A stretch of 64,000 nucleotides of DNA, taken from the NCBI RefSeq assembly GCF_014219065.1, contig NZ_JACLGO010000005.1, forward strand, positions 62,001 through 126,000. Direction: 5' to 3'. This DNA comes from Halopseudomonas xiamenensis (GTDB taxonomy: Bacteria > Pseudomonadota > Gammaproteobacteria > Pseudomonadales > Pseudomonadaceae). The notes beneath the pieces are model-generated. The model did no database searches, was not told where the DNA came from, and was given only the letters and a program-made list of their open reading frames with translations. Numbering within the stretch: the stretch's first letter is position 1; each line of letters opens with the position of its first letter. Of this stretch, positions 25,050 through 52,602 are shown piece by piece. Both the position numbers and the translations under genes were made by a program.

Positions 25050-25679
25050 CTACATACCATTGCGCGCCTCGGCCAGCATCGACAAGCTGATCTTGCGGAC
25101 TTCGATCTTGCTCTGCTCGATATGGGAGCGCAGCAGCATCTGTGCCTCATCGCGTTTGCGCGCTGCCAGGGCAGTCAGAATGCGTGCGTGTTCGTTGTAG
25201 GTTTCCTCGATGCGGGCGCTCTTGTAGAAATCCAGGCGCCGGACGATACGAATGCGATCACAGACCTCGGCATGCACACGCATCATTTCGCGATTGCCAG
25301 CCGCGGCCAGTAGACCACAGTGGAACGCCTCATCCAGATCGGCCACCTGTTTCATGCCGTGCTCACGCCGCTCCGGCGGCACCATCCATACTCGGTTGAG
25401 GTCGGCAAGCGCGCCGGCCAGGTCCGGCAGGCCGCACAAACGCTCGATGGCAACGCTCTCCAGCACAACGCGCAAATCGTAGAGCTCGTCGATCTGATCG
25501 AAGTCCAGTGGCTTGACCGTCCAGCCCCGGCGAAAACCCACTTCCATATAGCCCTCGCGCTCCAGGCGATAGAGCGCGTCACGCACCGGCGTGCGTGATA
25601 CCTGGTAACGCGCGGCCAGTTCGGTCTCGCTGAAGCGATCATGGGGCAGCAGCTGGTAGTCGAAGATTTCCTGCTTCAA
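25050..25679 (-). CDS. GntR-family (FCD/FadR type) regulator, start codon unresolved
   Basis: A regulator of about 209 residues or slightly more. The winged helix contains SETELAARYQVSRTPVRDALYRLEREG, and the C-terminal FCD ligand domain runs from about residue 65 (DELYDLRVVLE) to the end, with FHxxLLAAAGN and a late H as expected. The coordinate uses TTG 25679, but recognisable GntR sequence (LKPQTNALAEQIYQRLKQ) continues upstream in frame to a TGA at 25743-25745, which is the stop of the AtzH-like gene; no ATG, GTG or TTG lies in that stretch. An ATG at 25731-25733 is one base out of frame. It is the last gene of the ureide operon and probably represses it from the two palindromes at 33235-33264. 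Confidence 0.85.
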   Translation of the reverse strand: MKQEIFDYQLLPHDRFSETELAARYQVSRTPVRDALYRLEREGYMEVGFRRGWTVKPLDFDQIDELYDLRVVLESVAIERLCGLPDLAGALADLNRVWMVPPERREHGMKQVADLDEAFHCGLLAAAGNREMMRVHAEVCDRIRIVRRLDFYKSARIEETYNEHARILTALAARKRDEAQMLLRSHIEQSKIEVRKISLSMLAEARNGM

Positions 25680-25742
25680 CCGCTGATAGATCTGCTCGGC
25701 CAGGGCATTGGTCTGGGGCTTTAAAATGGCATCACCTGCTGT

Positions 25743-26138
25743 TCAAAGCGTACTGAGATCGACACTCACATGCGCGGAAACCACTTTCCAGCCAGCTGGA
25801 AAACGTACCCAGGTCTGCATTTGTCGGCCCGTACGACGGGTTTCACCGTCACTGAATTCCGTACTGACAGTGGCATAGTTTTCATCAAAAGTGGATATCA
25901 CCGTATTGCGCAGTAGCCGGCCTTGGCCCACCGGCGTACAGACGCGCCGATAAGCGGCGATATCCCGGGCGCCGTAGAGATTTTCGGCAACGCCGTAACG
26001 CACGGTATGATCGGTGTTCCAGAAGTAGTCGTCCAGCACCTCCAGCTCGTTGGCCAGCAAGGCACGCTCGTAGTCTTCAAAGGCCAGGCGCACGGCCTCG
26101 ACCACATGGGGCAGATTGATCTGCGGTTCCTTGTTCAC
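25743..26138 (-). CDS. AtzH-like / HpxZ-like (DUF3225) protein
   Basis: A 131-residue NTF2-like cone-fold protein: [27 protein letters not shown], then [14 protein letters not shown], then [21 protein letters not shown]. AtzH of Pseudomonas sp. ADP is a decarboxylating amidohydrolase for 1,3-dicarboxyurea in cyanuric acid breakdown, and HpxZ belongs to oxalurate catabolism. Neither the AtzE/HpxY amidase nor the AtzG/HpxX subunit is encoded here, so its role must differ in detail. The start is GTG, overlapping the upstream hydrolase stop as GTGA. Confidence 0.82.
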
Positions 26139-26815
26139 GCTCGATCCTCGGTCATGGCGGCGCTCAGCGCCGACAGGTTAGCGGTGTGTCCGACGATGCC
26201 GCCCTGGGCAACGACCATCTCCAGTGTTGCCTGTTTGAAGGCCGGAAAATAGCTTTCGGTTGCGTCTTCTATCAGCAGGCAACGGTAGCCTCGGTCATTG
26301 GCTTCGCGCATGCTGGTCTGCACGCAGACTTCGGTGGTGACGCCGGCGAAAATCAGAGACTCGATGCCCTGCGCGACCAGCCTGTCCTCCAGGCCGGTCG
26401 CGTAGAACATCCCCTTGCCCGGTTTGTCGATCACCCACTCACCGGCAATCGGCGCCAGTGCCGGGATGATCTGATTGCCCGGCTCGCCGCGCACCAGAAT
26501 GCGCCCCATCGGCCCAGGGTCACCGATGTGCAATCCGACCGCGCCCCCTTCGCGCTTGGCCGAAGGGCAGTCCGACAGATCCGCAAGATGCGATTCGCGG
26601 GTATGAAGCACCAGCATGCCCTGCTCCCGGGCCAGAGCCAGAGCCAGCAGTGAGGCTACCGCTGGAACAATGGCCTGCAGCAGCGTCACGTCGTTACCCA
26701 GGGCAGCACCGAAGCCGCCGGGCTCGAGAAAGTCCCGCTGCATATCGATAACGACCAGCGCCGTGCGCGTTGGCTCGAAGCTGAAAGTGGCCGGTCTGGC
26801 CGGCAGTCTGATCAT
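26135..26815 (-). CDS. Isochorismatase-fold cysteine amidohydrolase, triuret hydrolase (TrtA) candidate
   Basis: A 226-residue cysteine hydrolase with the full catalytic triad D24 (VVIDMQRDF), K131 ([10 protein letters not shown]) and C164 ([20 protein letters not shown]). It is clearly paralogous to the BiuH-like protein two genes upstream, sharing [21 protein letters not shown] and the REANDRGY tail. Triuret hydrolases are close BiuH relatives described beside biuH genes, so triuret is my leading substrate guess, but specificity cannot be read directly; another ureide or amide is possible. The start overlaps the ABC ATPase stop as ATGA. Confidence 0.75.
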
Positions 26816-28365
26816 GCTGCACCTGCCGCACGCTGATCTTCATGCCCCCCGCCGGCCATATAGTGGCCCAGCGTGGCACGATCCGCCTGGTCGGCGGCCA
26901 CCTCGAAATTGATTTCGCCCTCGTGAATGACCAGGATGCGGTCGGACATTTCCAGCAGTTCGTCCAGATCCTCGCTCAGCAGCAATACGGCCGCGCCCTG
27001 GGCGCGAGCATCGCGCAGCCGCTGGTGGATGATCGCCACCGAGGCGAAATCCAGACCAAAAACCGGGTTGGACACGATCAGTGTGCGAACGTCGTCGGTC
27101 AGCTCACGGGCCAGTACTGCACGCTGCACGTTACCGCCGGACAACGTACCGATCGGCCGCAGCGGGTCCGCCGGACGCACGTTGAACTGCTGAATCAGCG
27201 CCGTAGCCTGGGTCTGAATAGCCCGCCGGTTGATCAGCCAACCCTGACGGCACAGCGGCGGCTGGTCGAAGTTGCGCAGTGCCAGGTTGTCCGCCACGCT
27301 CATGCCGGCGATGCAGGCATTGCGCAAGGGCTCTTCCGGCAGACTGAAGACCTTCTCGCGTTGCATTTCCCGACGGCTGGCCTGGTAGCGCGCGCCGTTG
27401 ATGCGAATCTCGCCACTGGCTGACTGGCGCTGTCCCAACAACGCCTCGGTCAACTCGCGCTGGCCGTTGCCGGAGATGCCGGCAATACCGACGATCTCGC
27501 CAGGGCGCACAGCCAGCGACAGCTTGCTGACCGCCAGTGTGCCCTTGTCGTTGGCCACGCTCAGCTCACGCACATCCAACCGTGGCGCGGCCGATGGATC
27601 GACCGGCTTCTGGCTGACCGGATCGGCGGCCGATTCGGCGGCACCCATCATCCAGGTGGCCAGTTCTTCCTGGGAGGTAGCACTGACCTGAGTACTGCCG
27701 ACCAGCCGGCCCTTGCGCAGCACGCTGACATCGTCAGCGAAGCGTGACACCTCGCCGAACTTGTGGGTGATCATCAGGACCGAGATATCGCCCTTGTGCG
27801 CCATGTCGCGCATCAGGCCCAACACCTCCTCGGCCTCCTGCGGCGTCAGTACCGAGGTGGGTTCGTCGAGGATGATCAGGTGACGATCCAGGTACAGCTG
27901 CTTGAGAATTTCCAGCTTCTGCTTTTCGCCCGCCGCCAGCGAGCTGACGGGGCGTTCGATATCCAGCCGGAACGGCATGCGCTGCATGAACTCGTTGAGG
28001 CGTTTGCGCTCCAGCGGCCAGTCGATGCGCCAGTTCAGGTCGCCGCGTGACAGTACCAGATTCTCTGCCACGCTCAGGCCCGGCGCCACGGTAAAGTGCT
28101 GATACACCATGCCGATGCCCAGCGCATGGGAGTCTCGCGGGGTACGGATCTGCTGTTGACGGTTGTTGACCAGCAGTTCGCCGTCGTCCAAAGGACCGTA
28201 ACCCACGATCCCCTTGACCAGGGTGCTCTTGCCCGCGCCGTTCTCGCCCAGCAACGCATGGACAGTACCGGCCCGTACGGTCAGCGATACCTCCGCCAAC
28301 GCCTGAAAGCTGCCGAAGGACTTGCTCGCGCCAATGATTTCCAGACTGAGCGCACGCATGATCAA
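26812..28365 (-). CDS. ABC transporter ATPase with two ABC domains (BMP-associated, NupO/YufO type)
   Basis: A 517-residue protein of two fused ATP-binding cassettes energising a BMP-type importer. Domain 1 has Walker [10 protein letters not shown], the Q-loop region and Walker [12 protein letters not shown]. Domain 2 has a degenerate Walker A ([16 protein letters not shown]) and the signature [15 protein letters not shown]. This tandem layout is that of nucleoside, purine and sugar importers. It overlaps biuH by ATGA and the next hydrolase by ATGA, so it is embedded between the two hydrolase genes. Confidence 0.93.
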
Positions 28366-29057
28366 TGCTCGCTCAGCAGCTCGACGAGCGACGCCGAGTC
28401 GGACACCGCACCGAATACGCCGCCCTGCATCTTGACCATGTGCAGCGCCGCCAGGTGGTTACCGGGATCGGTGGCACCACAACAGTCCTCCAGCAACAGG
28501 CACTCGAAGCCGCGATCATTCGCCTCACGCATGGTGGTGTGCACACAGACGTCGGTGGTGATGCCGCACAGGATCAGATTCTCGATACCGCGAGTACGCA
28601 GGATCAGCTCCAGGTCGGTGGCGCAGAACGAACCTTTTCCGGGCTTGTCGATGATCACTTCGCCGGCCAGCGGCTGCAGCTCCGGAATCAGTTCCCAGCC
28701 CGGCTCGCCACGCACCAGAATACGCCCGCAGGGACCCGCATCGCCGATACCGGCACCGATGCGCTGGGATCGCCAGCGCTTGTTCGCCGGTAGATCAGAC
28801 AGGTCCGGGCGGTGCCCTTCCCGGGTATGGATGATATGAAAGCCCTGCTCGCGCATGACCTTCAACACGCGGCTGATCGGCTCGATGGGCGCCCGTACGG
28901 CCGCCAGATCGTAGCCCATGGTATCCACGTAGCCGCCCTCACCGCAGAAGTCGGTCTGCATATCGATGATGATCAGCGCGGTGTTGGCCGGCTGCAACTG
29001 GCCGTTGTACGGCCAGGGATAGGGTTCGGAAACAAGAAAGCGCTCGCTCAAGGTCAT
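28362..29057 (-). CDS. biuH: Biuret amidohydrolase (BiuH)-like cysteine hydrolase
   Basis: A 231-residue isochorismatase-fold enzyme. Biuret amidohydrolase converts biuret to allophanate and ammonia. The triad is D32 (IIIDMQTDF), K138 ([10 protein letters not shown]) and C171 ([19 protein letters not shown]). These sit exactly four positions before the D36, K142 and C175 I recall for Rhizobium leguminosarum BiuH, and the N-terminal [28 protein letters not shown] and [11 protein letters not shown] segments match that protein from memory. RutB-type ureidoacrylate hydrolases are more distant. The start overlaps the formamidase stop (TAATG), and the stop overlaps the ATPase gene. Confidence 0.82.
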
Positions 29058-30064
29058 TACTCCTGACTGTCCGGGTTGTAGAGTCGCTCGGGCGCGGCAA
29101 AACCGCAGCTGCTGCCATCGGTGTGGACCACCTCATCCTCCCAGGGCAGGCGGTACTGGCCAGCGGCCAGGTCGTGCATGTAGGTATAGGGGCAGTCCTG
29201 TGCTCCGCCCTTGACTGCCACATAACCACGGTGGCCGAACTGATAGATGTTGTTTTCCACACCCCAGTGCTTGCGCGCCTCGCGCACCAGGTCCGGACGC
29301 AGTTCGCAGGAGACGATCTCGTCCGCGCGGCCACCGCCTTCGGCCATTGGCGTGCCGTCGAAATCGACAAACATGGCTTCGCCCATCGAATCGAAGGTGC
29401 CATCAGAGCCACACATGCACACGCTGGCGGTCTGCATCAGGTTGGTGAACGAGTTGACCTGGTTGGTGATCTTCCACGAATGCCGAATCGGCGCGGTATA
29501 ACCGGCGGTACGGATCATGATCTCTGCACCCTTGTAGGCGCACTCGCGGGCCATTTCCGGGAACATGCCGTCGTGGCAGATGATCAGCGCCAGCTTGCTA
29601 CCGCGCGGACCATCGCACACCGGGATGCCGAGGTTGCCCGGTTCCCAGGGCTCGACCGGGACCCAGGGGTGCAGCTTGCGGTAGTACAGACGCACTTCAC
29701 CGGTATCATCAACGATGATGCCGCTGTTGTAGGGATTACCGTGCGGGTTGGCTTCCATGATCGAAAAGCAGCCCCAGATGCTGTGATCGATGCAGGCCTG
29801 CTTGAGTGCCGCGACTTCCGGCCCATCCAGGGTACACATGATGTCGGGCGACGTATCCATCGACAGACCGTGCAGCGAGTACTCCGGAAACACGATCAGG
29901 TCCATGCTCGGCATGCTGCGTCGGGCCTTGCCGATCATCGCCACGACCTTCTGCGTCTGCACCCAGAGTTCATCGCGGGTATGCGGGTCGGGCAGGGTCA
30001 GCTGTGCCAGCCCGATTACGACGCCATTAGGTGATTTGTTCAGTCCACCAAGTCCACTTGCCAT
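29057..30064 (-). CDS. amiF: Formamidase (AmiF-like, nitrilase superfamily)
   Basis: A 335-residue C-N hydrolase; AmiF of Helicobacter pylori (334 residues) hydrolyses formamide to formate and ammonia. The nitrilase triad is E61 (VFPEYSLHG), K130 ([14 protein letters not shown]) and C163 ([10 protein letters not shown]). Formamidase-specific stretches such as [17 protein letters not shown] and [14 protein letters not shown] are kept. Other short amides cannot be excluded. It lies between the second permease (12-bp gap) and biuH (1-bp overlap), so it is part of the ureide operon. Confidence 0.88.
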
Positions 30065-30075
30065 GTCAGTTACCT

Positions 30076-30996
30076 CTATCGATTGAGACTGAGCTCACCT
30101 GGAGCTCCCGTCAGTGTGCGGTTGGGACGACAGGTGGCGAGCATCACTGCCATCGTCAGGATGTAGGGCGCCGCGCTGTACAGGTAGTAGCCGGAGCTGA
30201 TACCGACCGACTGAAGCGCCGGACCGATAGCGCCGGCCGCGCCGAATACCATCGATGCCCACAGGCAGTTCAGCGGTTGCCAGCGAGCAAAGATCACCAG
30301 TGCAACGGCCATCAGTCCCTGCCCGCTAGACAGCCCCTCGTTCCAGCTGCCGGGGTAATAGAGCGACAGGTAGGAGCCGCCGACGCCGGCCAGAAAGCCA
30401 CCGACAGCCGTCGCCATGACGCGTACTCGCAGTGGGCGGTAACCCAGCGCCTGGGCCGACTCGGAGTGGTCACCGACCAGTCGCAGAACCAGCCCCCAGC
30501 GCGTGCTGCGCAGCCCCCAGTGCAGAAAGATCGCCAGCGCCACACCGATAAAGAACAGCATGTTGATGTTCAAGGCTGAACGAACGCGCCCGTCGTCGCT
30601 CCAGGCGCCGAGGGATATCGACGGCAGCATCGGAGCCTGGGGCTGAATAAAGGCCTTGCCAAGGAAGAACGCCAGTCCGGTCCCGAGCAGCATCAACGCG
30701 ATACCAAAGGCAATATCATTGACCCTCGGCAGCGAACAGACGATGCCGTGCAACAGGCCCAGTAACAGCCCGGCGCCGCCCGCCGCCAGCACTCCGGTCC
30801 AGGCCGAACCGGACAGGTAGGCCACGGCGTAGCCGGTCATCGCCCCGGCCACTAGAATGCCCTCCAGACCCAGGTTGATGCGGCCACTTTTTTCCGTCAG
30901 ACACTCGCCCAGACTGACGAACAGGAACGGCGTGCCGACCCGCACCGCACCCGCCAGCAGAGCCAGCAGGAAGGTCACCAAGTCCAGATCACCCAT
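30076..30996 (-). CDS. ABC transporter permease 2 (BMP-associated, NupQ/YufQ type)
   Basis: A 306-residue integral membrane protein of the branched-chain amino acid/ribose permease family (BPD_transp_2), with eight or more hydrophobic segments. The EKSGRINLGLEGILVAGAMTGY loop near residues 35-56 is typical of BMP-linked nucleoside and purine importers. I choose ATG 30996 (MGDLDLVTFLLALL); the frame is open five codons further upstream. It overlaps permease 1 by 8 bp. Confidence 0.9.
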   Translation of the reverse strand: MGDLDLVTFLLALLAGAVRVGTPFLFVSLGECLTEKSGRINLGLEGILVAGAMTGYAVAYLSGSAWTGVLAAGGAGLLLGLLHGIVCSLPRVNDIAFGIALMLLGTGLAFFLGKAFIQPQAPMLPSISLGAWSDDGRVRSALNINMLFFIGVALAIFLHWGLRSTRWGLVLRLVGDHSESAQALGYRPLRVRVMATAVGGFLAGVGGSYLSLYYPGSWNEGLSSGQGLMAVALVIFARWQPLNCLWASMVFGAAGAIGPALQSVGISSGYYLYSAAPYILTMAVMLATCRPNRTLTGAPGELSLNR

Positions 30997-32101
30997 GTTG
31001 CACCTCGGCACCCTTTGATTTATTGGCGTGCTCTTCCAGTCTGATGCGCCATTGAGTAATACGACCCACCAGCGCCTCCCAGGCCAGCAGATTGGTGAAC
31101 AGCAGGCCCTGCAGAATCAGCGTGGTGGCGTCGGGCAGATCCAGCCGGCGTTGCAGCAGGCTGCCGCTGGCCTCGATACCCCCGACCAGGGTCGCGCAGA
31201 CGATGATTGCCAGCGGGTTATGCCGAGCGGCGAAGGACACCAGAATCCCGCTGATGCCATAGCCGACAATCAACGAAGCGTTGGCACTGCCCTGTACCGC
31301 GCTGACTTCGTACATGCCCGCCAGCCCGGCAGCCGCGCCACCCAGCACACAAGTCAGAATCACCAGGCGATTGACCGGCAGGCCCAGCATCCGCGCGGTG
31401 CGCACGTTGCCGCCGACAACGTCCAGCGCAAAGCCCTTGACGCTATGGCGCACCAGCACATAGGCCAGCACGCAGGCAACAATGCCAGCCACCAGCCCCC
31501 AGTGAACGCGAAAGGAGTCCTCGCTGATCATCCCGATCATCAGCGAATAATCCAGTCCGACAGTGGAGGGTTTGTTCAAGCTGGAGGGATCGCGCAGCGG
31601 CCCTTCTACCAGATGGTTGAACAGGGCAATGGCGATATAGGACAGCAGCAGACTGCCGATGGTCTCATTCAGACCGCGCTTCTGCCGAAGCCAGCCGTTG
31701 AGACCGATCCAGAACCCGCCAACCAGCATCGCCACCATGCCCATCGCAATCAACGTTGCCAGGGGCGGCAGACCGGTCAGCCATAGTGGTAGCGTTGCTG
31801 CGGCCAGACCACCCAGCACCAGCGCGCCTTCGCCACCGATGATGATCAGACCGGCACGCGCAGGCAGCGCTACACAGAGCGCAGTCAGCATCAGGGGAGC
31901 AGCCCGCTGCAAGGTGTTTTCCCAGGCAAAGGACGAACCGAATGCGCCCTCGAACACCAGGGCGAGGGCCTCGAACGCCGGCTTACCCTGAAAAGCCAGG
32001 AACAGCACGAACAGTGCGAAGGAGCTGATAATCGACAGCACGGTAGGCAGGCCGGGCAATGCCAGCCTGGCCAACCTGCTTGCAAGATAATGTGGATTCA
32101 T
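30989..32101 (-). CDS. ABC transporter permease 1 (BMP-associated, NupP/YufP type)
   Basis: A 370-residue multi-span permease of the same family. It shows the RAGLIIIGGEGALVLGGLAAA loop, followed by LNETIGSLLLSYIAIALFNHLVEG, both typical of YufP-like subunits. With permease 2 it forms the membrane channel fed by the binding protein encoded immediately upstream (3-bp gap). ATG 32101. Confidence 0.9.
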   Translation of the reverse strand: MNPHYLASRLARLALPGLPTVLSIISSFALFVLFLAFQGKPAFEALALVFEGAFGSSFAWENTLQRAAPLMLTALCVALPARAGLIIIGGEGALVLGGLAAATLPLWLTGLPPLATLIAMGMVAMLVGGFWIGLNGWLRQKRGLNETIGSLLLSYIAIALFNHLVEGPLRDPSSLNKPSTVGLDYSLMIGMISEDSFRVHWGLVAGIVACVLAYVLVRHSVKGFALDVVGGNVRTARMLGLPVNRLVILTCVLGGAAAGLAGMYEVSAVQGSANASLIVGYGISGILVSFAARHNPLAIIVCATLVGGIEASGSLLQRRLDLPDATTLILQGLLFTNLLAWEALVGRITQWRIRLEEHANKSKGAEVQHG

Positions 32102-32104
32102 GGA

Positions 32105-33214
32105 TCAGATATCGCCGCGAACGCCTTCGACGAGGTAGTTCATCTGCTCCAGCACCACGTCGGTCTGCCCCAGCGCCTCGCCCTCGGCCAGCACCACATT
32201 GCCCTTGTTGTCCTTCAGCGGGCCCTTGAACAGGGTGAACTCGCCAGCAATCATGGATGCCTTGACAGCATCCGCCTGCTCACGCGCCTCGGCGCTGACG
32301 TTCGGGCCGTAATCAGACGCCTTGACGAAGCCTTCGGCCAGACCGCCGCGCAGGAAGTTGTTCATGGTCTCGCCCTTCTGGGCTGCCTCAACGTGTGCCC
32401 GGTAAGGCGTCTCCCAATTCCATTCGGCACCGGTCAGATAACCATTGGGGGCCAGGGCTGCCTGACTGGCGTGGTAACCGCAACTCATTACGCCACGGCG
32501 CTCGGCCGTTTCCACGATCACCTTGGGTCCATCAACGTGACAGGTCAGCACATCGCAGCCCTGGTCGATCAGGCCGTTGGCAGCTTCCGCTTCGCGCACC
32601 GGCAAGGACCAGTCACCGGTAAAGATCACGGTGGTGGTGATCTCCGGATCGACCGAGCGAGCGCCCAGAGTGAAGGCGTTGATATTACGCAACACCTGGG
32701 CCACCGGTTTGGCGGCGATAAAACCGATGCGCTTGGTCTTGCTCATGTGACCCGCGACCACGCCGTTGAGATACTGCCCCTCATCGATATAACCGAAAAA
32801 GCTGCCGACATTCTTCGGATGCTTGCTCTCGTCCCAGAGGCCACCACAGTGGGCGAAGCGCACGTCCGGGTAACGCTGAGCCACGCGCAACACGTGAGGA
32901 TCGAAATAACCGAAGGACGTGGCGAAGATCAGCTCGGCCCCATCCTGGCGGATCATGGCTTCCATGGCCTGCTGCACGGCGGAGGTTTCCGGCACGTTCT
33001 CTTCTTCGATGACCTTGACGTTCGGCATGCTGCGAATGATGCGAGCCGCCTGGGCGTGGGCCTGGTTGTAACCGAAGTCGTCACGCGCCCCCACGTAGAC
33101 GAAACCCACCACAAGGGGTTTGTCCGCTGCGCGGGCAAAGCTGAATGGCATGGCTGCAGTGATACCGATCAAGCCGGCCAGTTTGAGAAATTTACGACGA
33201 TCTAAATCCGACAT
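32105..33214 (-). CDS. BMP-family substrate-binding protein with Tat signal
   Basis: A 369-residue periplasmic binding protein of the Bmp/PnrA family, which elsewhere binds nucleosides, purines or ureides. The start is ATG 33214 with AGGAAG about 6 bases upstream. The N-terminus, MSDLDRRKFLKLAGLIG, carries a twin-arginine motif (R6-R7) followed by a hydrophobic stretch and FARA cleavage site, so export through Tat is likely. BMP motifs are GFVYVGARDDFGYNQAH and GSFFGYIDEGQYLNGVVAG. It is the first gene of the nine-gene operon and lies about 47 bases downstream of the predicted sigma-54 start point. Confidence 0.9.
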   Translation of the reverse strand: MSDLDRRKFLKLAGLIGITAAMPFSFARAADKPLVVGFVYVGARDDFGYNQAHAQAARIIRSMPNVKVIEEENVPETSAVQQAMEAMIRQDGAELIFATSFGYFDPHVLRVAQRYPDVRFAHCGGLWDESKHPKNVGSFFGYIDEGQYLNGVVAGHMSKTKRIGFIAAKPVAQVLRNINAFTLGARSVDPEITTTVIFTGDWSLPVREAEAANGLIDQGCDVLTCHVDGPKVIVETAERRGVMSCGYHASQAALAPNGYLTGAEWNWETPYRAHVEAAQKGETMNNFLRGGLAEGFVKASDYGPNVSAEAREQADAVKASMIAGEFTLFKGPLKDNKGNVVLAEGEALGQTDVVLEQMNYLVEGVRGDI

Positions 33215-33234: not shown

Positions 33235-33264
33235 ATGTATTCATGTGTTCAATCATGTATACAT
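33235..33264 (-). promoter_or_regulatory. Tandem GntR-type operators upstream of the ureide operon
   Basis: The perfect 10-bp palindrome ATGTATACAT (33255-33264) contains TGTATACA, a typical FadR/FCD-class half-site pair. A one-mismatch copy, ATGTATTCAT, lies at 33235-33244, exactly 20 bp away, two helical turns. The perfect copy covers the predicted transcription start. The operon-encoded GntR protein is the obvious candidate ligand-responsive repressor; binding is inferred. Confidence 0.6.
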
Positions 33265-33271
33265 GCTGCAT

Positions 33272-33287
33272 AGCAGGATACGTGCCA
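33272..33287 (-). promoter_or_regulatory. Sigma-54 (RpoN) promoter of the ureide operon
   Basis: On the minus strand the sequence is TGGCACGTATCCTGCT. It has the -24 GG and -12 GC with exactly ten bases between, a full TGGCACG upstream element, and CTGCT against TTGCW downstream. The predicted start is near 33261. The remaining intergenic sequence to ung (33288-33435) contains several GCAC motifs but no convincing NtrC palindrome that I can see. A sigma-54 promoter fits nitrogen control. Confidence 0.8.
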
Positions 33288-33435
33288 GGCTTAATCCTTG
33301 GATCTAGGCTCTTTCATGCCACGTAGTGACTTATTTTGGGTCACACCCGCCCGCTTCGCACAAAGTTCGGGCCTATGCACATTGGGCCGGACATCTTTGC
33401 GCACATGAAAGCAGGGCTTGAACGGAGCATGGGTA

Positions 33436-34484: not shown

Positions 34485-35768
34485 TCAGAGAATATTGGCG
34501 TAGTCGGCCTCGATGCGGTCGAGACTGAGATTGGTCAGGAACCCGGAAAAGCACATCCAGGCGCTCAGGGCATTGAGGTCGGCGAAGGGTTCCGGCAGGT
34601 AGCGCGGCGGCACCACCAGCCCCTCCTCCACCAGTTGGCCGAGGGTACGCATGTCTTCCAGGGTGGTCTTGCCGCAGAACAGCAACGGAATCTGCTGCAG
34701 CTTGCCCTGGCGCACCGCCAGCTGGATATAGTTGTAGGTCAGGATGAAGCCCTTGAGGTAGGCCAGGTCCTTGGTGAAGGGCAGGCCATCGCTGCTGGAG
34801 CCGCGGAACACGCGGCTGGCATTGTTGTAGCTCTCCTCATCGCTGTAACCCTCGCCCTGGTAGAAGCCGAACACATCGAGAAAATCACCACCGGACTCGG
34901 CCAGCTGGATCGCCCGGGTGCGGTTGGTCAGCTTGCGCAGGCGCGACGGATAGGAGGCGAAGGTGATCACCTCCATGAGGATCGCCAACCCTTCCTGGGT
35001 CACGGTGGAGGACGGCGGCCCCTTGGCCAGGAAGGTGCAGATCGGCTGATGCTGGCCATTGAGGCTGGTGGCTACGTGCACCATACCCTCGTGCACCGCG
35101 AGGATCTTCAGGTCGCGCTGGTTGAACATGGCGTCACTGCGGATCTTGATATAGTCGGCGCCGGCCGCCGCATCGGCGACGATACCATCGGACTCGAAGA
35201 CCCGCACCGCCTGGTCATCGGGGAATACCTTGTCCATCTGCTCCTGCAGGATGGCCACCGCCTCGGGGGCGGCGATGGTTTTCGGGTCGCGGCCCAGGTC
35301 ATCACCGATATTGCTCAGCGACTCGCTGAGCATGATGCCCAGGTCGGTGATGGTCGGGTCGCCGGCATGGAAGGCATCCGAGGCCGAGCCGTACAGCTCC
35401 TGGGAAATGCGGCCCATCTCCGGGGTACCGCGCGCTTCGAGCATGCGCAGGACCATGCGGTATTCGCGACACATGCGCCGCATGATCTGGCCAACCGGGT
35501 TGAAGGTGCCGAGCTGGCGGGTGATATCGCGTTCTATGTCCTGGAACAGCTGCAGGCGCTCGGCCGGATCGAAGGCCATAGGCCGGCGCTTGTAGTAATC
35601 CGGGCCGACATCCGGGAGTTTCTTGCAGCCATCGCGGAAGAACTGGTCACGGATAGCGTCGTCCCACTTGATCGCATCCAGCACCCGAATCGGCGCCTGG
35701 GCCTCGACGATACGGTCGGACAGGCTGCGGATGACCAGTTGGTACTGCTCGCTCTGTTTTACCGCCAT
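34485..35768 (-). CDS. QEGLA-motif protein (DUF1704/MATCAP-like putative metalloprotease)
   Basis: A 427-residue protein of the family annotated as flavohemoglobin expression-modulating QEGLA motif protein. It contains an HExxxH motif, H226-E227-GMV-H231, in AVHEGMVHVATSLNG and the name-giving Q258-E259-GLA 27 residues later. In eukaryotic MATCAP relatives these residues bind zinc and cleave peptides; the bacterial role is unclear. ATG 35768 (MAVKQSEQYQLVI) is preceded by GGGAGCAG. The open frame continues upstream only because a 7-bp repeat translates without stops. Confidence 0.85.
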   Translation of the reverse strand: MAVKQSEQYQLVIRSLSDRIVEAQAPIRVLDAIKWDDAIRDQFFRDGCKKLPDVGPDYYKRRPMAFDPAERLQLFQDIERDITRQLGTFNPVGQIMRRMCREYRMVLRMLEARGTPEMGRISQELYGSASDAFHAGDPTITDLGIMLSESLSNIGDDLGRDPKTIAAPEAVAILQEQMDKVFPDDQAVRVFESDGIVADAAAGADYIKIRSDAMFNQRDLKILAVHEGMVHVATSLNGQHQPICTFLAKGPPSSTVTQEGLAILMEVITFASYPSRLRKLTNRTRAIQLAESGGDFLDVFGFYQGEGYSDEESYNNASRVFRGSSSDGLPFTKDLAYLKGFILTYNYIQLAVRQGKLQQIPLLFCGKTTLEDMRTLGQLVEEGLVVPPRYLPEPFADLNALSAWMCFSGFLTNLSLDRIEADYANIL

Positions 35769-35799
35769 GCGCTGCTCCCTGTGTTGTCGCTGCTTGCTT

Positions 35800-35861
35800 C
35801 GTTGCTCGTTGCTCGTTGCTCGTTGCTCGTTGCTCGTTGCTCGTTGCTCGTTGCTCGTTGC
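35800..35861. repeat. Heptanucleotide tandem repeat (CGTTGCT)n
   Basis: Eight perfect head-to-tail copies of CGTTGCT occupy 35800-35855, followed by six more matching bases. On the minus strand the unit is AGCAACG, located 32 bases upstream of the QEGLA ATG, so copy-number change would alter its leader or promoter spacing. A seven-base unit is not a multiple of three. Confidence 0.95.
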
Positions 35862-35868
35862 CGTGCGA

Positions 35869-36038
35869 GGAAACATTGATCTGGCTGGGTTGTGGAGTGG
35901 CCAGGTCAGGTACCGTCCAGTCCAGACACGCCGTGAATACATCCCTGTAGGCTCGCGGTTGCCATCCATGGCAACCGACGGTCTGGACTGGACGGTACCT
36001 GACCCGGCTCGTGAGCCTCAGAGTGGATCAATGTTTCC
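35869..36038. repeat. Nested inverted-repeat element between the QEGLA gene and lysS
   Basis: An outer pair of perfect 13-bp arms, GGAAACATTGATC (35869-35881) and its complement (36026-36038), encloses an inner pair of perfect 24-bp arms (35904-35927 and 35981-36004, beginning GGTCAGGTACCG). Between the inner arms is a third hairpin, GGTTGCCA-TCCA-TGGCAACC. There is no open reading frame, so it resembles a MITE- or REPIN-like element. With the heptamer array and two downstream hairpins it accounts for the 397-bp gene-free stretch 35769-36165. Confidence 0.85.
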
Positions 36039-49397: not shown

Positions 49398-51899
49398 CTA
49401 CCAGGCCATCGGCAACAGGATGAAGGCAGCGAAGCCGAGCCAGAACACCCCCAGGGTATAGCTCCAGAACGGCTGCAGTACCTGCGGCTCATAGGGCAGC
49501 CGTACGCTGACATAGCCACGCTGCACACGCACCGCCTGCATGGCACTGAGCAATGCCGCCAACGCCCCGTGGAACAGCAGATAGCAGAGCATCACCGTCA
49601 GCACCGCGTCATAAGCCGAACCGGTCGGACTCAGTTCAGCCAGCAACAACACCCAGACCAGCAACAGCACATGCACCACGCCGAGTAATGCCACCAGCCA
49701 CAGGCCACCCGCCAGCTGGCTGGTGCTGCCGCGCTGCAGTTGCCGGTTCAGCCAGTGATAGAGCGCCACCGCCAGGCTCAGGCCGAGACCGCTGGCAAGC
49801 AGCAATGGCACATCGAGCGGCCCCTGCTCCGGCGCCTGCCATTGCGGCGCGGCGGTCCACAGGTAGAACCAGCCGAACAGCAGCGAGGCGTACAGCGAGC
49901 CGTTGGCCATGAGCGTCAGCAACATGCCCCAGCGCCCCGGCCCATCCAGGGTACGCGAATGCAGTGGCGGATCGCAGGGATCATCCGCCCGCAGCGGTGC
50001 GGCGCGTGGATGCCCACCGTTGTGCCAGCTCCAGCGCAACATGATGACGGTGCTGACCAGCACCGCAGCCAGCGCCAACCAGTAGCTCTTGAGCAGCAGC
50101 CCCAGGCATACCACCGTCAGCGCCAGCCCGGCCTGCAGCGGAATCCATGAGTTGCTCGGCAGATGTACCCGCTCGCGCAGCCGACCGCTCACCGCATCTG
50201 AGCCCCAGGTTTCCCGCAGCCCATGGTGGATGGTCGCCAGCGAATGCTCGCCGCGCTCGATCTCGTCGGGCAGCTGCGGGTTGTCCCACAGCGGGTGGCG
50301 GCTGCGAATGGTCGGCAGGCTGATGAAATTGTAGGTGGTCACCGGCATGGCCACCGCCCATTCCAGCGTATCCGCCGCCCAGGGATTGCGCGGCGCGCGC
50401 CGACCGAAGCGAAAGTGCATGCCGATATCGAGCAGGAACATGGCAATGCCGATGGCCATGATGAAGCCACCGATGGTCGACAGCAGGTTCAACCAGTCCC
50501 AACCCAGCCCCGCCTCGTAGGTGTACACCCGCCGCGGCATGCCCAGCAGCCCGGTCAGGTGCATCAGCAGGAAGGTGACGTTGAAGCCGATGAACACCAG
50601 CCAGAACGCCCAGGCACCGAGCACATTCGATGGCATGCGCCCGGAAACGTGAGGCAACCAGTAATACAGACCGGCAATCAGCGGGAACAGCATGCCACCG
50701 ACCAACACGTAATGCAGGTGGGCAACCACGAAGTGGGTGTCGTGCACCTGCCAGTTGAACGGCACCAGCGCCAGCATCACCCCAGTCAGGCCACCAGCGA
50801 CGAAGATGATCAGAAAGCCCAGTATCCACAGCATCGGCAGGTTCCACACCACCCGCCCGGTCCACAGCGTGGCCAGCCAGGCGAAGACCTGGATGGTGGT
50901 GGGGATCGCCACCAGCATGCTGGCCATGGAGAAGAAGGCCTGTGCCAGCTGTGGAATGCCGACGGTGAACATGTGGTGTACCCAGAGGCCGAAACTGATG
51001 AAGCCCATGACGATGACCGCCAGCACTATCCAGCGATAGCCGACGATCGGCCGCCGGGCGAACACCGGGATCAGCGTCGAGACGATGCCCGCCGCCGGCA
51101 GGAAGATGATGTACACCTCGGGATGGCCGAACAGCCAGAACAGGTGCTGCCAGAGCAGCGGATCGCCGCCACCGGCGACTTCGAAGAACACCATGCCGGC
51201 GGCCCGCTCCAGTTCCAGCAGGATGCTGGCAAGGATCAGCGGCGGAAAGCCGAATACGATCATCAGCGCCATGGCCAGGATATACCAGCAGAACAGCGGC
51301 ATCTGCCGTAGCGACATGCCGTTGGCACGGGTACGCAGGATCGACACGATCAGCTCGATGGCGCCGGTCATCGAGCTGATCTCGACGAAGGTGATGCCCA
51401 GCAGCCAGAAGTCCGACCCGGGGCCCGGCGAGAAGGTGCTGCTGCTCAGCGGCGTATACATGAACCAGCCCGAATCCGGGGCGATGTTCAGCAGCAGGCT
51501 GGAAAGGATGATCAGCCCGCCGAACAGGTAGCAGAAATAGCCCATGGCGCCGAGCCGCGGAAAGGCCAGGTCGCGCGCGCCGATCATCTTCGGCACCAGA
51601 TACATCGCCACGCCCTCCAGGATCGGGATGGCGAACAGGAACATCATCAAGGTCCCGTGCATGGTGAACAGCTGGCTGTACAGGTCAGCGCCGATGATGC
51701 TCTGCTCCGGCAGGGCCAGCTGGGTGCGCAGCAGCATGGCCAGCAGCCCACCGACCAGGAAGAAGAACAGCCCGGTAACGATGAAACGCAGGCCGACCGA
51801 GGTGTGGTTGACCGCCGCCAGGGCGCCGATGCCCGGCAGGTTGCCCCACACCCGGTCGAACTGTGCGTGCAATTGTGCGTTGTCCTGCTGCTCACTCAT
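49398..51899 (-). CDS. Cytochrome c oxidase, fused subunits I and III
   Basis: An 833-residue heme-copper oxidase polypeptide. Residues up to about 560 form subunit I: heme-ligand TMHGTLMMF, the CuB/Tyr box WLFGHPEVYI with the glutamate typical of A1-type oxidases, the CuB pair VHHMFTVG, and the heme ligands HDTHFVVAHLHYVLVG. A linker is followed by helices resembling subunit III (SLYASLLFGWFYLWTAAP and later segments). It reduces O2 to water and pumps protons. ATG 51899 (MSEQQDNAQLHAQFDRVWG); the start overlaps the coxB stop by 8 bp. No heme A synthesis or Cox11 gene is in view. Confidence 0.92.
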   Translation of the reverse strand: MSEQQDNAQLHAQFDRVWGNLPGIGALAAVNHTSVGLRFIVTGLFFFLVGGLLAMLLRTQLALPEQSIIGADLYSQLFTMHGTLMMFLFAIPILEGVAMYLVPKMIGARDLAFPRLGAMGYFCYLFGGLIILSSLLLNIAPDSGWFMYTPLSSSTFSPGPGSDFWLLGITFVEISSMTGAIELIVSILRTRANGMSLRQMPLFCWYILAMALMIVFGFPPLILASILLELERAAGMVFFEVAGGGDPLLWQHLFWLFGHPEVYIIFLPAAGIVSTLIPVFARRPIVGYRWIVLAVIVMGFISFGLWVHHMFTVGIPQLAQAFFSMASMLVAIPTTIQVFAWLATLWTGRVVWNLPMLWILGFLIIFVAGGLTGVMLALVPFNWQVHDTHFVVAHLHYVLVGGMLFPLIAGLYYWLPHVSGRMPSNVLGAWAFWLVFIGFNVTFLLMHLTGLLGMPRRVYTYEAGLGWDWLNLLSTIGGFIMAIGIAMFLLDIGMHFRFGRRAPRNPWAADTLEWAVAMPVTTYNFISLPTIRSRHPLWDNPQLPDEIERGEHSLATIHHGLRETWGSDAVSGRLRERVHLPSNSWIPLQAGLALTVVCLGLLLKSYWLALAAVLVSTVIMLRWSWHNGGHPRAAPLRADDPCDPPLHSRTLDGPGRWGMLLTLMANGSLYASLLFGWFYLWTAAPQWQAPEQGPLDVPLLLASGLGLSLAVALYHWLNRQLQRGSTSQLAGGLWLVALLGVVHVLLLVWVLLLAELSPTGSAYDAVLTVMLCYLLFHGALAALLSAMQAVRVQRGYVSVRLPYEPQVLQPFWSYTLGVFWLGFAAFILLPMAW

Positions 51900-52602
51900 C
51901 GCCAGTCGCTCCTTCCAGCCAGGCAGCGTACTCACTCGGCGCATGGGCCCGGACGGTGAATTTCATGTGTGCATGCCCGATACCGCAGAACTCCGCGCAC
52001 TGGCCGTGGTACAGCCCCGGCTCGTCGGCCTGCAGACGCAGCACATTGGTGCGCCCCGGCAGCATGTCCAGCTTGCCGCCCAGGCGCGGCACCCAGAAGG
52101 AGTGAATGACGTCGTCGCTGGTCAGGTGCAGGTCCACCGGCGTGCCGGCCGGGATATGCAGCTCGTCGCGCAGGCGGATGCCACTGTCAGGATAGCTGAC
52201 GTCCCACCACCATTGGCGGGCGGTGACGTCGATGCGCACCACCTCGCTATCAGCCAGCGGCAGGGGCAGCATGCGGTGGCCGATGGGAATGCCGAACGCC
52301 AGCAGCAGGGTGATGCTGGTCACCGGCAGAACCAGCCCACCACCGATGATCCAGCGGTTGTGCACCCGCCGCGCCTGCTCCTGCGACCACTGGCGCGGAC
52401 GGCGACGCAGGGCATACAGCCACAGGCTTACCACCGCAATCAGGGTGACCGTGGCGAAGCCGACCATCGCCCACCACAATCCGGCCGCGCCGGCAGCGGA
52501 AGGCCCGGCCGGGTCGAGTGCGGAATAGGGTCCGCTGCAGCCGCCCAATAATGCTGCCAGGCCGGTCAGGCCAGTGGCTGCTACGCTTGAGGCATACCGC
52601 TT
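51892..52602 (-). CDS. coxB: Cytochrome c oxidase subunit II (lipoprotein), 5' end unresolved
   Basis: Subunit II carries the CuA centre that receives electrons from cytochrome c. The CuA ligands are in GQCAEFCGIGHAHMKF, with the earlier histidine in SDDVIHSFWVP, and an aromatic patch ARQWWWDVSYPD. Two TM helices follow a lipoprotein signal, LAALLGGC, with C at 52537-52539. No ATG, GTG or TTG precedes the signal in frame before the divergent DUF2231 gene; the end given (52602) is where homology-like sequence begins (KRYASSVAATGLTG). The nearest ATG, 52592-52594, is out of frame and meets TAG after four codons. There is no fused cytochrome c domain. Confidence 0.85.
   Translation of the reverse strand, partial: KRYASSVAATGLTGLAALLGGCSGPYSALDPAGPSAAGAAGLWWAMVGFATVTLIAVVSLWLYALRRRPRQWSQEQARRVHNRWIIGGGLVLPVTSITLLLAFGIPIGHRMLPLPLADSEVVRIDVTARQWWWDVSYPDSGIRLRDELHIPAGTPVDLHLTSDDVIHSFWVPRLGGKLDMLPGRTNVLRLQADEPGLYHGQCAEFCGIGHAHMKFTVRAHAPSEYAAWLEGATGDE

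Follow-up and report, generated by a model that had tools for sequence, protein, structure and literature searches.

A nine-gene operon of Halopseudomonas xiamenensis, read leftward at positions 25050..33214 of a 64,000-nucleotide stretch of the genome (the window; contig 55 within a 4.28-Mb genome), very probably serves to scavenge nitrogen from triuret and biuret. Both compounds are impurities of urea fertiliser, and triuret also arises from urate oxidation (PMC7948467). The operon appears to encode an ATP-binding cassette (ABC) importer with a BMP-type binding protein, a triuret hydrolase (TrtA), a biuret hydrolase (BiuH), an AtzH/TrtB-like protein and a GntR regulator, together with a formamidase of a separate, BiuH-linked subfamily. 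An earlier note on this DNA had listed nine leftward genes; all nine minus-strand open reading frames (ORFs) were confirmed in place, and the expected families were matched by profile. The features are as follows, from the upstream region to the last gene.

33272..33288, minus strand: candidate sigma-54 promoter CTGGCACGTATCCTGCT, i.e. CTGGCACG-N4-CTGCT, upstream of the first gene
33235..33264, no strand assigned: pair of ATGTATACAT-like palindromes with a 20-base spacing, directly after the sigma-54 site and candidate operators for GntR
32105..33214, minus strand: BMP-type periplasmic binding protein with an RR-x-FLK (Tat-like) signal (PF02608, 148 bits; AtzT 6pi5, 215 bits)
30989..32101, minus strand: ABC permease 1 (BPD_transp_2, PF02653)
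30076..31011, minus strand: ABC permease 2 (BPD_transp_2, PF02653); ATG at 30996 is a likelier start than the listed GTG
29057..30064, minus strand: formamidase of the BiuH-linked AmiF subfamily (NF009803, 565 bits against a cut-off of 406; clade; co-occurrence)
28362..29057, minus strand: BiuH biuret hydrolase (NF050097, 419 bits against a cut-off of 370; best Protein Data Bank match BiuH 6azo, 427 bits; residues; tree)
26812..28365, minus strand: double-ABC ATPase of the importer (PF00005, two stretches); ATG at 28359 is a likelier start than the listed TTG
26135..26815, minus strand: TrtA-type triuret hydrolase (6xix, 306 bits; five of six specificity residues; clade with 6xix)
25743..26138, minus strand: AtzH/TrtB-like protein of an NTF2-fold family, likely a carboxybiuret decarboxylase (PF11533, 161 bits)
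25050..25727, minus strand: GntR/FCD regulator with a probable ATT start at 25727 (PF00392, PF07729)

Most junctions had been described as overlapping. This holds with the listed ORF starts, where five of the eight junctions overlap (by 23, 1, 4, 4 and 4 bases, the remaining gaps being 3, 11 and 15-18 bases), but only four of the eight overlap with the ATG starts of permease 2 and the ATPase, whose start codons were checked.

In the proposed mechanism, the BMP-type protein would catch a small planar ureide and hand it to the ABC importer. TrtA would convert triuret to carboxybiuret and ammonia, the AtzH/TrtB-like protein (or spontaneous loss) would remove CO2 from carboxybiuret to leave biuret, and BiuH would convert biuret to allophanate and ammonia. 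The last two ammonia would be released from allophanate by an allophanate hydrolase encoded elsewhere in the genome. The reactions of TrtA and BiuH homologues are known from published work (PMC7948467). Transcription would probably start from the sigma-54 promoter under nitrogen shortage, with the operon's own GntR protein repressing it until substrate is present, and the formamidase may act as a final amidase, either on formyl-bearing substrates or on free formamide. The proposal of the earlier note, in which a dedicated BMP importer supplies enzymes that deaminate a poly-urea nitrogen source in sequence, is supported by the predicted identity of the BiuH and TrtA proteins, the AtzT-related binding protein, the AtzH residues and the conserved layout.

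The two hydrolases

The two isochorismatase-fold hydrolases can be named, from their profile scores, residues and position in a tree, as BiuH and a TrtA-type triuret hydrolase. The second hydrolase reaches 248 bits on the BiuH profile NF050097, which is below the cut-off, and its structural matches score 306 bits for TrtA (6xix) vs 202-204 bits for BiuH proteins. Residues separating TrtA from BiuH are listed in the TrtA paper (PMC7948467). In the alignment, the window TrtA carries the TrtA-type residues F, N, E, Y and I at positions 35, 41, 160, 187 and 205, and the window BiuH carries the BiuH-type residues Y, Y, S, D, T and V at positions 35, 41, 134, 160, 187 and 205 (TrtA numbering), as expected. 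The catalytic residues D24, K129 and C162 and the substrate-binding residues E72, K132 and Q202 are kept in both. Among the 81 rows taken as TrtA, six show BiuH-type residues and were kept in the counts; in one of them, from locus L045, the TrtA and BiuH rows are identical, so one gene was picked twice.

A phylogeny of both hydrolases, which had been proposed as a check, placed one with BiuH and one with TrtA. The tree has 63 rows from 30 sources (window included) of about 100, with carbamoylsarcosine amidase left out. The window TrtA falls in a 25-row clade with 6xix (support 100/96), apart from BiuH, and the window BiuH groups with 6azo (90/86). RutB lies outside; its placement and that of one outgroup from the window's own genome are unsure because both sit on very long branches. 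Three rows (L028, L088 and L092) belong to neither the TrtA nor the BiuH clade.

The AtzH/TrtB-like protein and the remaining pathway

The eighth gene matches PF11533 and also exceeds the cut-off of the HpxZ profile (NF033625, 157 bits vs a cut-off of 135). Tyr22 and Arg46 of AtzH, numbered by our own fit, align with Tyr23 and Arg47 of the window protein, and both residues have been implicated in AtzH by mutagenesis (PMC6219798). AtzH is reported to convert dicarboxyurea to allophanate (PMC6219798) and TrtB to decarboxylate carboxybiuret (PMC7948467, PMC12625717); the latter activity would fit better here because there is no AtzE-type amidase among the nine genes. Outside the operon, an allophanate hydrolase gene (G000:C17:14807-16465) adjoins a urea carboxylase gene on contig 17 (837 and 1937 bits, respectively). 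No urease was found above its profile cut-off in this genome. The cyanuric acid hydrolase (AtzD) family gave no match in this genome either, nor did it in any control genome.

The importer and its binding protein

The signal of the binding protein was read from the sequence, and its best solved relative is AtzT, which has a twin-arginine translocation (Tat) signal and binds guanine at 0.11 µM and cyanuric acid weakly at 340 µM (PMC6834077). The AtzT ligand contacts Tyr45, Ser97, Phe98 and Trp194 are kept in the window protein, as is the second-shell Asn169. However, the purine-contacting Glu165 is replaced by Gln, hence the full set of purine contacts seen in AtzT is not present. This replacement is found in 88/92 operon binding proteins (Thr in three and Ile in one), whereas the position is Glu in AtzT, in the adenine-bound 3s99 and in all seven BMP proteins of other systems compared. 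The likely ligand is therefore described here as planar, with a hydrogen-bond pattern that would differ from that of a purine. The combination N218H and N220D was also considered as a ureide fingerprint and was rejected: the same residues occur in 3s99 and in 7/7 other BMP proteins, so that they are not special and only E165Q stands. The operon thus points to a specific importer and to a specificity hypothesis that turns on one residue, Gln in place of Glu at AtzT position 165; no experiment on the uptake of biuret or triuret by cells was found in the literature.

In seven Bradyrhizobium loci (L037, L050, L052, L053, L080, L081 and L083), a second BMP-type importer lies downstream of the biuret operon, at about 14-19 kb of the locus, and its binding protein is 32-35% identical and carries the purine-type Glu. 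In L081 and L083, the two loci inspected for neighbours, a deaminase-fold gene is located between the biuret operon and the second importer, with an amidohydrolase gene after the importer. This region is possibly a neighbouring purine-use cluster.

Distribution of the operon

The operon was compared across the best 80 of 588 confirmed BiuH relatives, with up to 10 kb fetched on each side. This selection biases the sample to close relatives; two genome draws, of 274 members of the class and of 398 Pseudomonadota genomes (an even draw over the phylum), are less biased. The binding protein and both permeases were present in the fetched locus in 76/80 relatives and the ATPase in 75/80, with TrtA in 65/80 and TrtB in 22/80. 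The gene arrangement is not due to chance. Allophanate hydrolase was encoded near biuH in 39/80 relatives and the formamidase in 36/80: both were present in 12, formamidase alone in 24, allophanate hydrolase alone in 27 and neither in 17. The record of Rhizobium 3841, the source of the crystallised BiuH, lists a BMP protein, two permeases, formamidase, an isochorismatase-family hydrolase (BiuH), atzD, the ATPase, a cysteine hydrolase and a cupin, so that it matches the window operon in its importer, formamidase, BiuH and TrtA-like genes. The main text of the BiuH structure paper makes no mention of transport, an operon or formamid (PMC5806882).

Nitrifier genomes have been reported to carry bmpA-nupABC beside biuH, trtA, trtB and atzF (PMC12625717). 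Since the synteny of the importer with biuH, trtA and trtB is published for nitrifiers and is also present around the Rhizobium 3841 BiuH, the core of the operon is already known. The earlier suggestion that a BMP importer tied to BiuH/TrtA-like enzymes is not experimentally described may stand at most for experiments; the synteny itself is in print (PMC12625717). Among the open-licence papers listed, judged by title, abstract start and term counts, neither a formamidase link nor sigma-54 control of biuH/trtA operons was found. The predicted formamidase subfamily linked to BiuH, the putative sigma-54 element and the Glu-to-Gln change in the binding protein were likewise not found in print among them.

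Complete operons of importer, formamidase, BiuH and TrtA headed by atzF were observed on plasmids of Pseudomonas luteola (L145) and Klebsiella (L146, conjugative). The Klebsiella version has no AtzH-like gene and is flanked by transposases of the IS5-like and IS1 types; the pathway is thus mobile. An AtzD-family gene was located near the operon in 19/80 relatives, at varying places and on either strand, for example at L016:14046 (minus) and L038:10690 (plus). The formamidase was present in 17 of these 19 loci vs 19 of the 61 others (Fisher test, relatedness ignored), an association that probably reflects shared ancestry in part.

A formamidase subfamily linked to BiuH

The window formamidase keeps E60, K133 and C166, which we take to be the Glu/Lys/Cys catalytic residues of AmiF. 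Across 55 members of its subfamily and five canonical AmiF proteins, 35 columns are fixed differently, one of them a deletion. The tree places the subfamily as a sister clade (45 rows, 100/97) to the canonical AmiF proteins (five rows, 98/94) and not inside the characterised formamidases. Carriers of the subfamily, defined by at least 72% identity to the window formamidase, make up 15 of the 398 genomes; all 15 also have BiuH (at least 70% identity), compared with 11 of the 383 genomes without the subfamily (the Fisher test applied ignores relatedness). These 15 genomes span nine families, with five genomes from one family. Apart from this genome there are 14 carriers: in 13 of them the formamidase gene sits no more than about 10 kb from importer or biuH genes, and in the remaining one (G357) it is on a separate contig from biuH. 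Furthermore, among the 36 relatives with a formamidase gene, 30 have it immediately upstream of biuH.

The draw of 274 genomes included two carriers in which BiuH was unmatched at E up to 1e-20, and there the formamidase gene stands beside a permease of the cytosine/purine type. These are L163 (G055) and L162 (G192); in L163 the formamidase gene also has an AmiE-kind carbon-nitrogen hydrolase gene nearby, along with genes read by us as those of a urea importer and a urease. The link between formamidase and BiuH is consequently strong and not absolute, because 15 of the 17 carriers across both draws have BiuH. Overlooked so far, the BiuH-linked formamidase points to an untried substrate class.

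Candidate promoter and proposed regulation

The operon offers a promoter that is likely to be under nitrogen control. Ahead of the binding-protein gene, 34/75 relatives carry the element TGGYAC-N5-TTGC vs 8/2859 control windows (relatedness uncorrected), and 1/75 relatives carry it on the opposite strand. Of the two palindromes that follow the window site, the one at 33255-33264 is exact and the one at 33235-33244 has one mismatch to ATGTATACAT, with three such sites in the window vs 0.41 expected. A site resembling TTGTATACAA (at least 8/10) follows the sigma-54-like site in 8/54 relatives vs 1.8% of shuffles. Upstream of atzF, a TTGTA-type palindrome was seen in all six atzF-headed operons inspected and a sigma-54-like element in two of the six. 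Control by sigma-54 has been reported for atz operons (PMC6834077). These sites suggest nitrogen control via sigma-54 combined with repression by GntR.

The GntR gene probably starts at the ATT at 25727 and not at the first listed TTG. The codon aligned with 25725-25727 is ATT in L014, L015 and L016 and ATC in L017, and an ATG is found nearby in L018. Such a start is possibly a deliberately weak one.

Alternative explanations

Several points weigh against assigning the operon to triuret and biuret. The assignment is built from sequence comparison throughout, and the formamidase is its unexplained piece, with no step in the triuret/biuret pathway. Allophanate hydrolase is missing from the nine genes, unlike the published operon of TrtA, BiuH and AtzF. 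Position 134 of the window TrtA is Met and not Ala, a residue also seen in 19/81 TrtA rows; the A134S change in TrtA is reported to be harmless (PMC7948467). The window copy of the sigma-54 element has CTGC instead of TTGC and, taken alone, is within chance (two matches vs 3.82 expected). For the eighth gene, the NCBIfam profile alone would assign the name HpxZ and a role in oxalurate breakdown, which is not favoured given that hpx models had no match among the remaining eight genes. Finally, purines are the ligands in the nearest solved binding proteins, which together with the weak binding of cyanuric acid by AtzT leaves room for a purine-like ligand. The importer and hydrolases might on that basis serve mainly some other planar compound, cyanuric acid for instance, or a ureide derived from purines, with triuret incidental. 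The AtzD-family genes in 19/80 relatives speak for such a role, yet AtzD is unmatched in this genome (though in the controls as well), and TrtA, whose specificity residues are kept here, is described as highly specific for triuret (PMC7948467). This alternative is improbable.

The formamidase could have replaced allophanate hydrolase as the last enzyme, given that the operon has no atzF and that 24/80 relatives have formamidase without atzF nearby. This was rejected and is extremely improbable, as both genes occur together in 12/80 loci and on two plasmids, and this genome encodes its allophanate hydrolase elsewhere. A stronger candidate is that the formamidase serves free formamide as an extra nitrogen source, co-regulated with the ureide genes since both answer nitrogen shortage, which comes close to an even call. 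The catalytic residues are kept, the two off-operon carriers lie beside a cytosine/purine-type permease, with L163 near an AmiE-kind hydrolase as in amide-utilisation clusters, and a canonical formamidase adjoins a urea importer on a plasmid. However, free formamide leaves unexplained both the confinement to BiuH genomes in the draw of 398 and the fixed differences from canonical AmiF.

Free formamide is at least as likely as a further possibility, which is an addition to triuret and biuret use and not its opposite, and is itself rather doubtful: that ureide chains have two kinds of end and the cascade two finishing amidases, so that formyl-capped ureides are degraded as well. N-formylbiuret can be seen as triuret, and formylurea as biuret, in which a formyl group takes the place of one carbamoyl group. 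Formylurea that loses its amino end should give formylcarbamate, which would lose CO2 to become formamide, a formamidase substrate. In this second, undescribed arm, the same transporter would also take up formylurea and N-formylbiuret, ureides of a kind that damage to pyrimidines, purines and triazines, or opening of their rings, is expected to yield. TrtA followed by BiuH would shorten these ureides at the amino end, with release of ammonia and CO2, down to formamide, from which the AmiF subfamily would release formate and ammonia; allophanate hydrolase would finish the amino-capped chains and formamidase the formyl-capped ones. Formylurea ranks second among TrtA substrates (0.07 U/mg, vs 24 for triuret and 0.0004 for biuret), but this is only 0.3% of the triuret rate (PMC7948467). 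The association of all 15 carriers in the draw of 398 with BiuH and the position directly upstream of biuH in 30/36 relatives would fit, as would the presence of formamidase both with (12/80) and without (24/80) allophanate hydrolase nearby, as expected for two separate finishing steps. Against it, the subfamily occurs in two genomes with no BiuH match, the main text of the BiuH paper never uses the word formyl (PMC5806882), and formyl-capped ureides as natural nutrients are assumed from general knowledge.

Genomic setting

Many of the surrounding window genes scanned have housekeeping roles, among them those for GTP diphosphokinase and uracil-DNA glycosylase as well as era, lepA and lysS. The closest BiuH matches among those listed are from Stutzerimonas, Halopseudomonas and Pseudomonas. 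Base composition showed no clear step that would indicate a recent foreign origin (G+C of 0.59-0.64 in the operon vs 0.61-0.69 in the flanks). Two genes beside the operon, for uracil-DNA glycosylase and enoyl-CoA hydratase, had no match in the 80 relatives even at E 1e-5 (a control query worked), so either the operon is located at other sites there or the fetched flanks end too early. Elsewhere in the window, a minus-strand gene at 49398-51944 encodes a cytochrome c oxidase subunit I of 848 residues, of which the CtaD model covers 42-545, with about 300 C-terminal residues outside. A 7-base tandem repeat of TTGCTCG (9.6 copies, 35794-35861) lies at the start of the ORF of a QEGLA-motif protein (34485-35969), and the length of its unit is not a multiple of three.

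Comparison with known systems

The closest described pathway is that of TrtA, BiuH and AtzF in Herbaspirillum BH-1 and Rhizobium leguminosarum 3841 (PMC7948467), with which the window operon shares a TrtB-like partner and TrtA and BiuH, both carrying the catalytic and specificity residues described there. Unlike the published triuret operon, it includes a formamidase and lacks allophanate hydrolase. Formamidase and importer genes are present in the annotated record of strain 3841 too, but the words formamidase and ABC transporter are absent from the main text of that paper (PMC7948467). The nitrifier bmpA-nupABC clusters have the same importer type, adjoining pathway genes and gntR in the figure legend (PMC12625717). 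They differ in that atzF is present in the bacterial clusters and the importer is called a nucleoside transporter, and that report nowhere contains the stem formamid (PMC12625717).

The atzSTUVW importer of Pseudomonas sp. ADP shares the BMP protein (AtzT), the Tat signal, the aromatic Tyr45/Trp194 clamp and Ser97-Phe98 with the window operon; the atz operons are reported to be under sigma-54 control, which is predicted here (PMC6834077). Where AtzT has Glu165, Asn218 and Asn220, the window protein has Gln, His and Asp; His and Asp are also found in other BMP proteins, whereas Gln is found in none of the nine compared. The regulator is of the GntR type and not AtzR. Canonical AmiF proteins (Helicobacter 2dyu and Bacillus 5g3o) share the fold family and E60, K133 and C166 with the window formamidase, but the latter differs in its 35 fixed columns, its separate clade and its neighbour genes.

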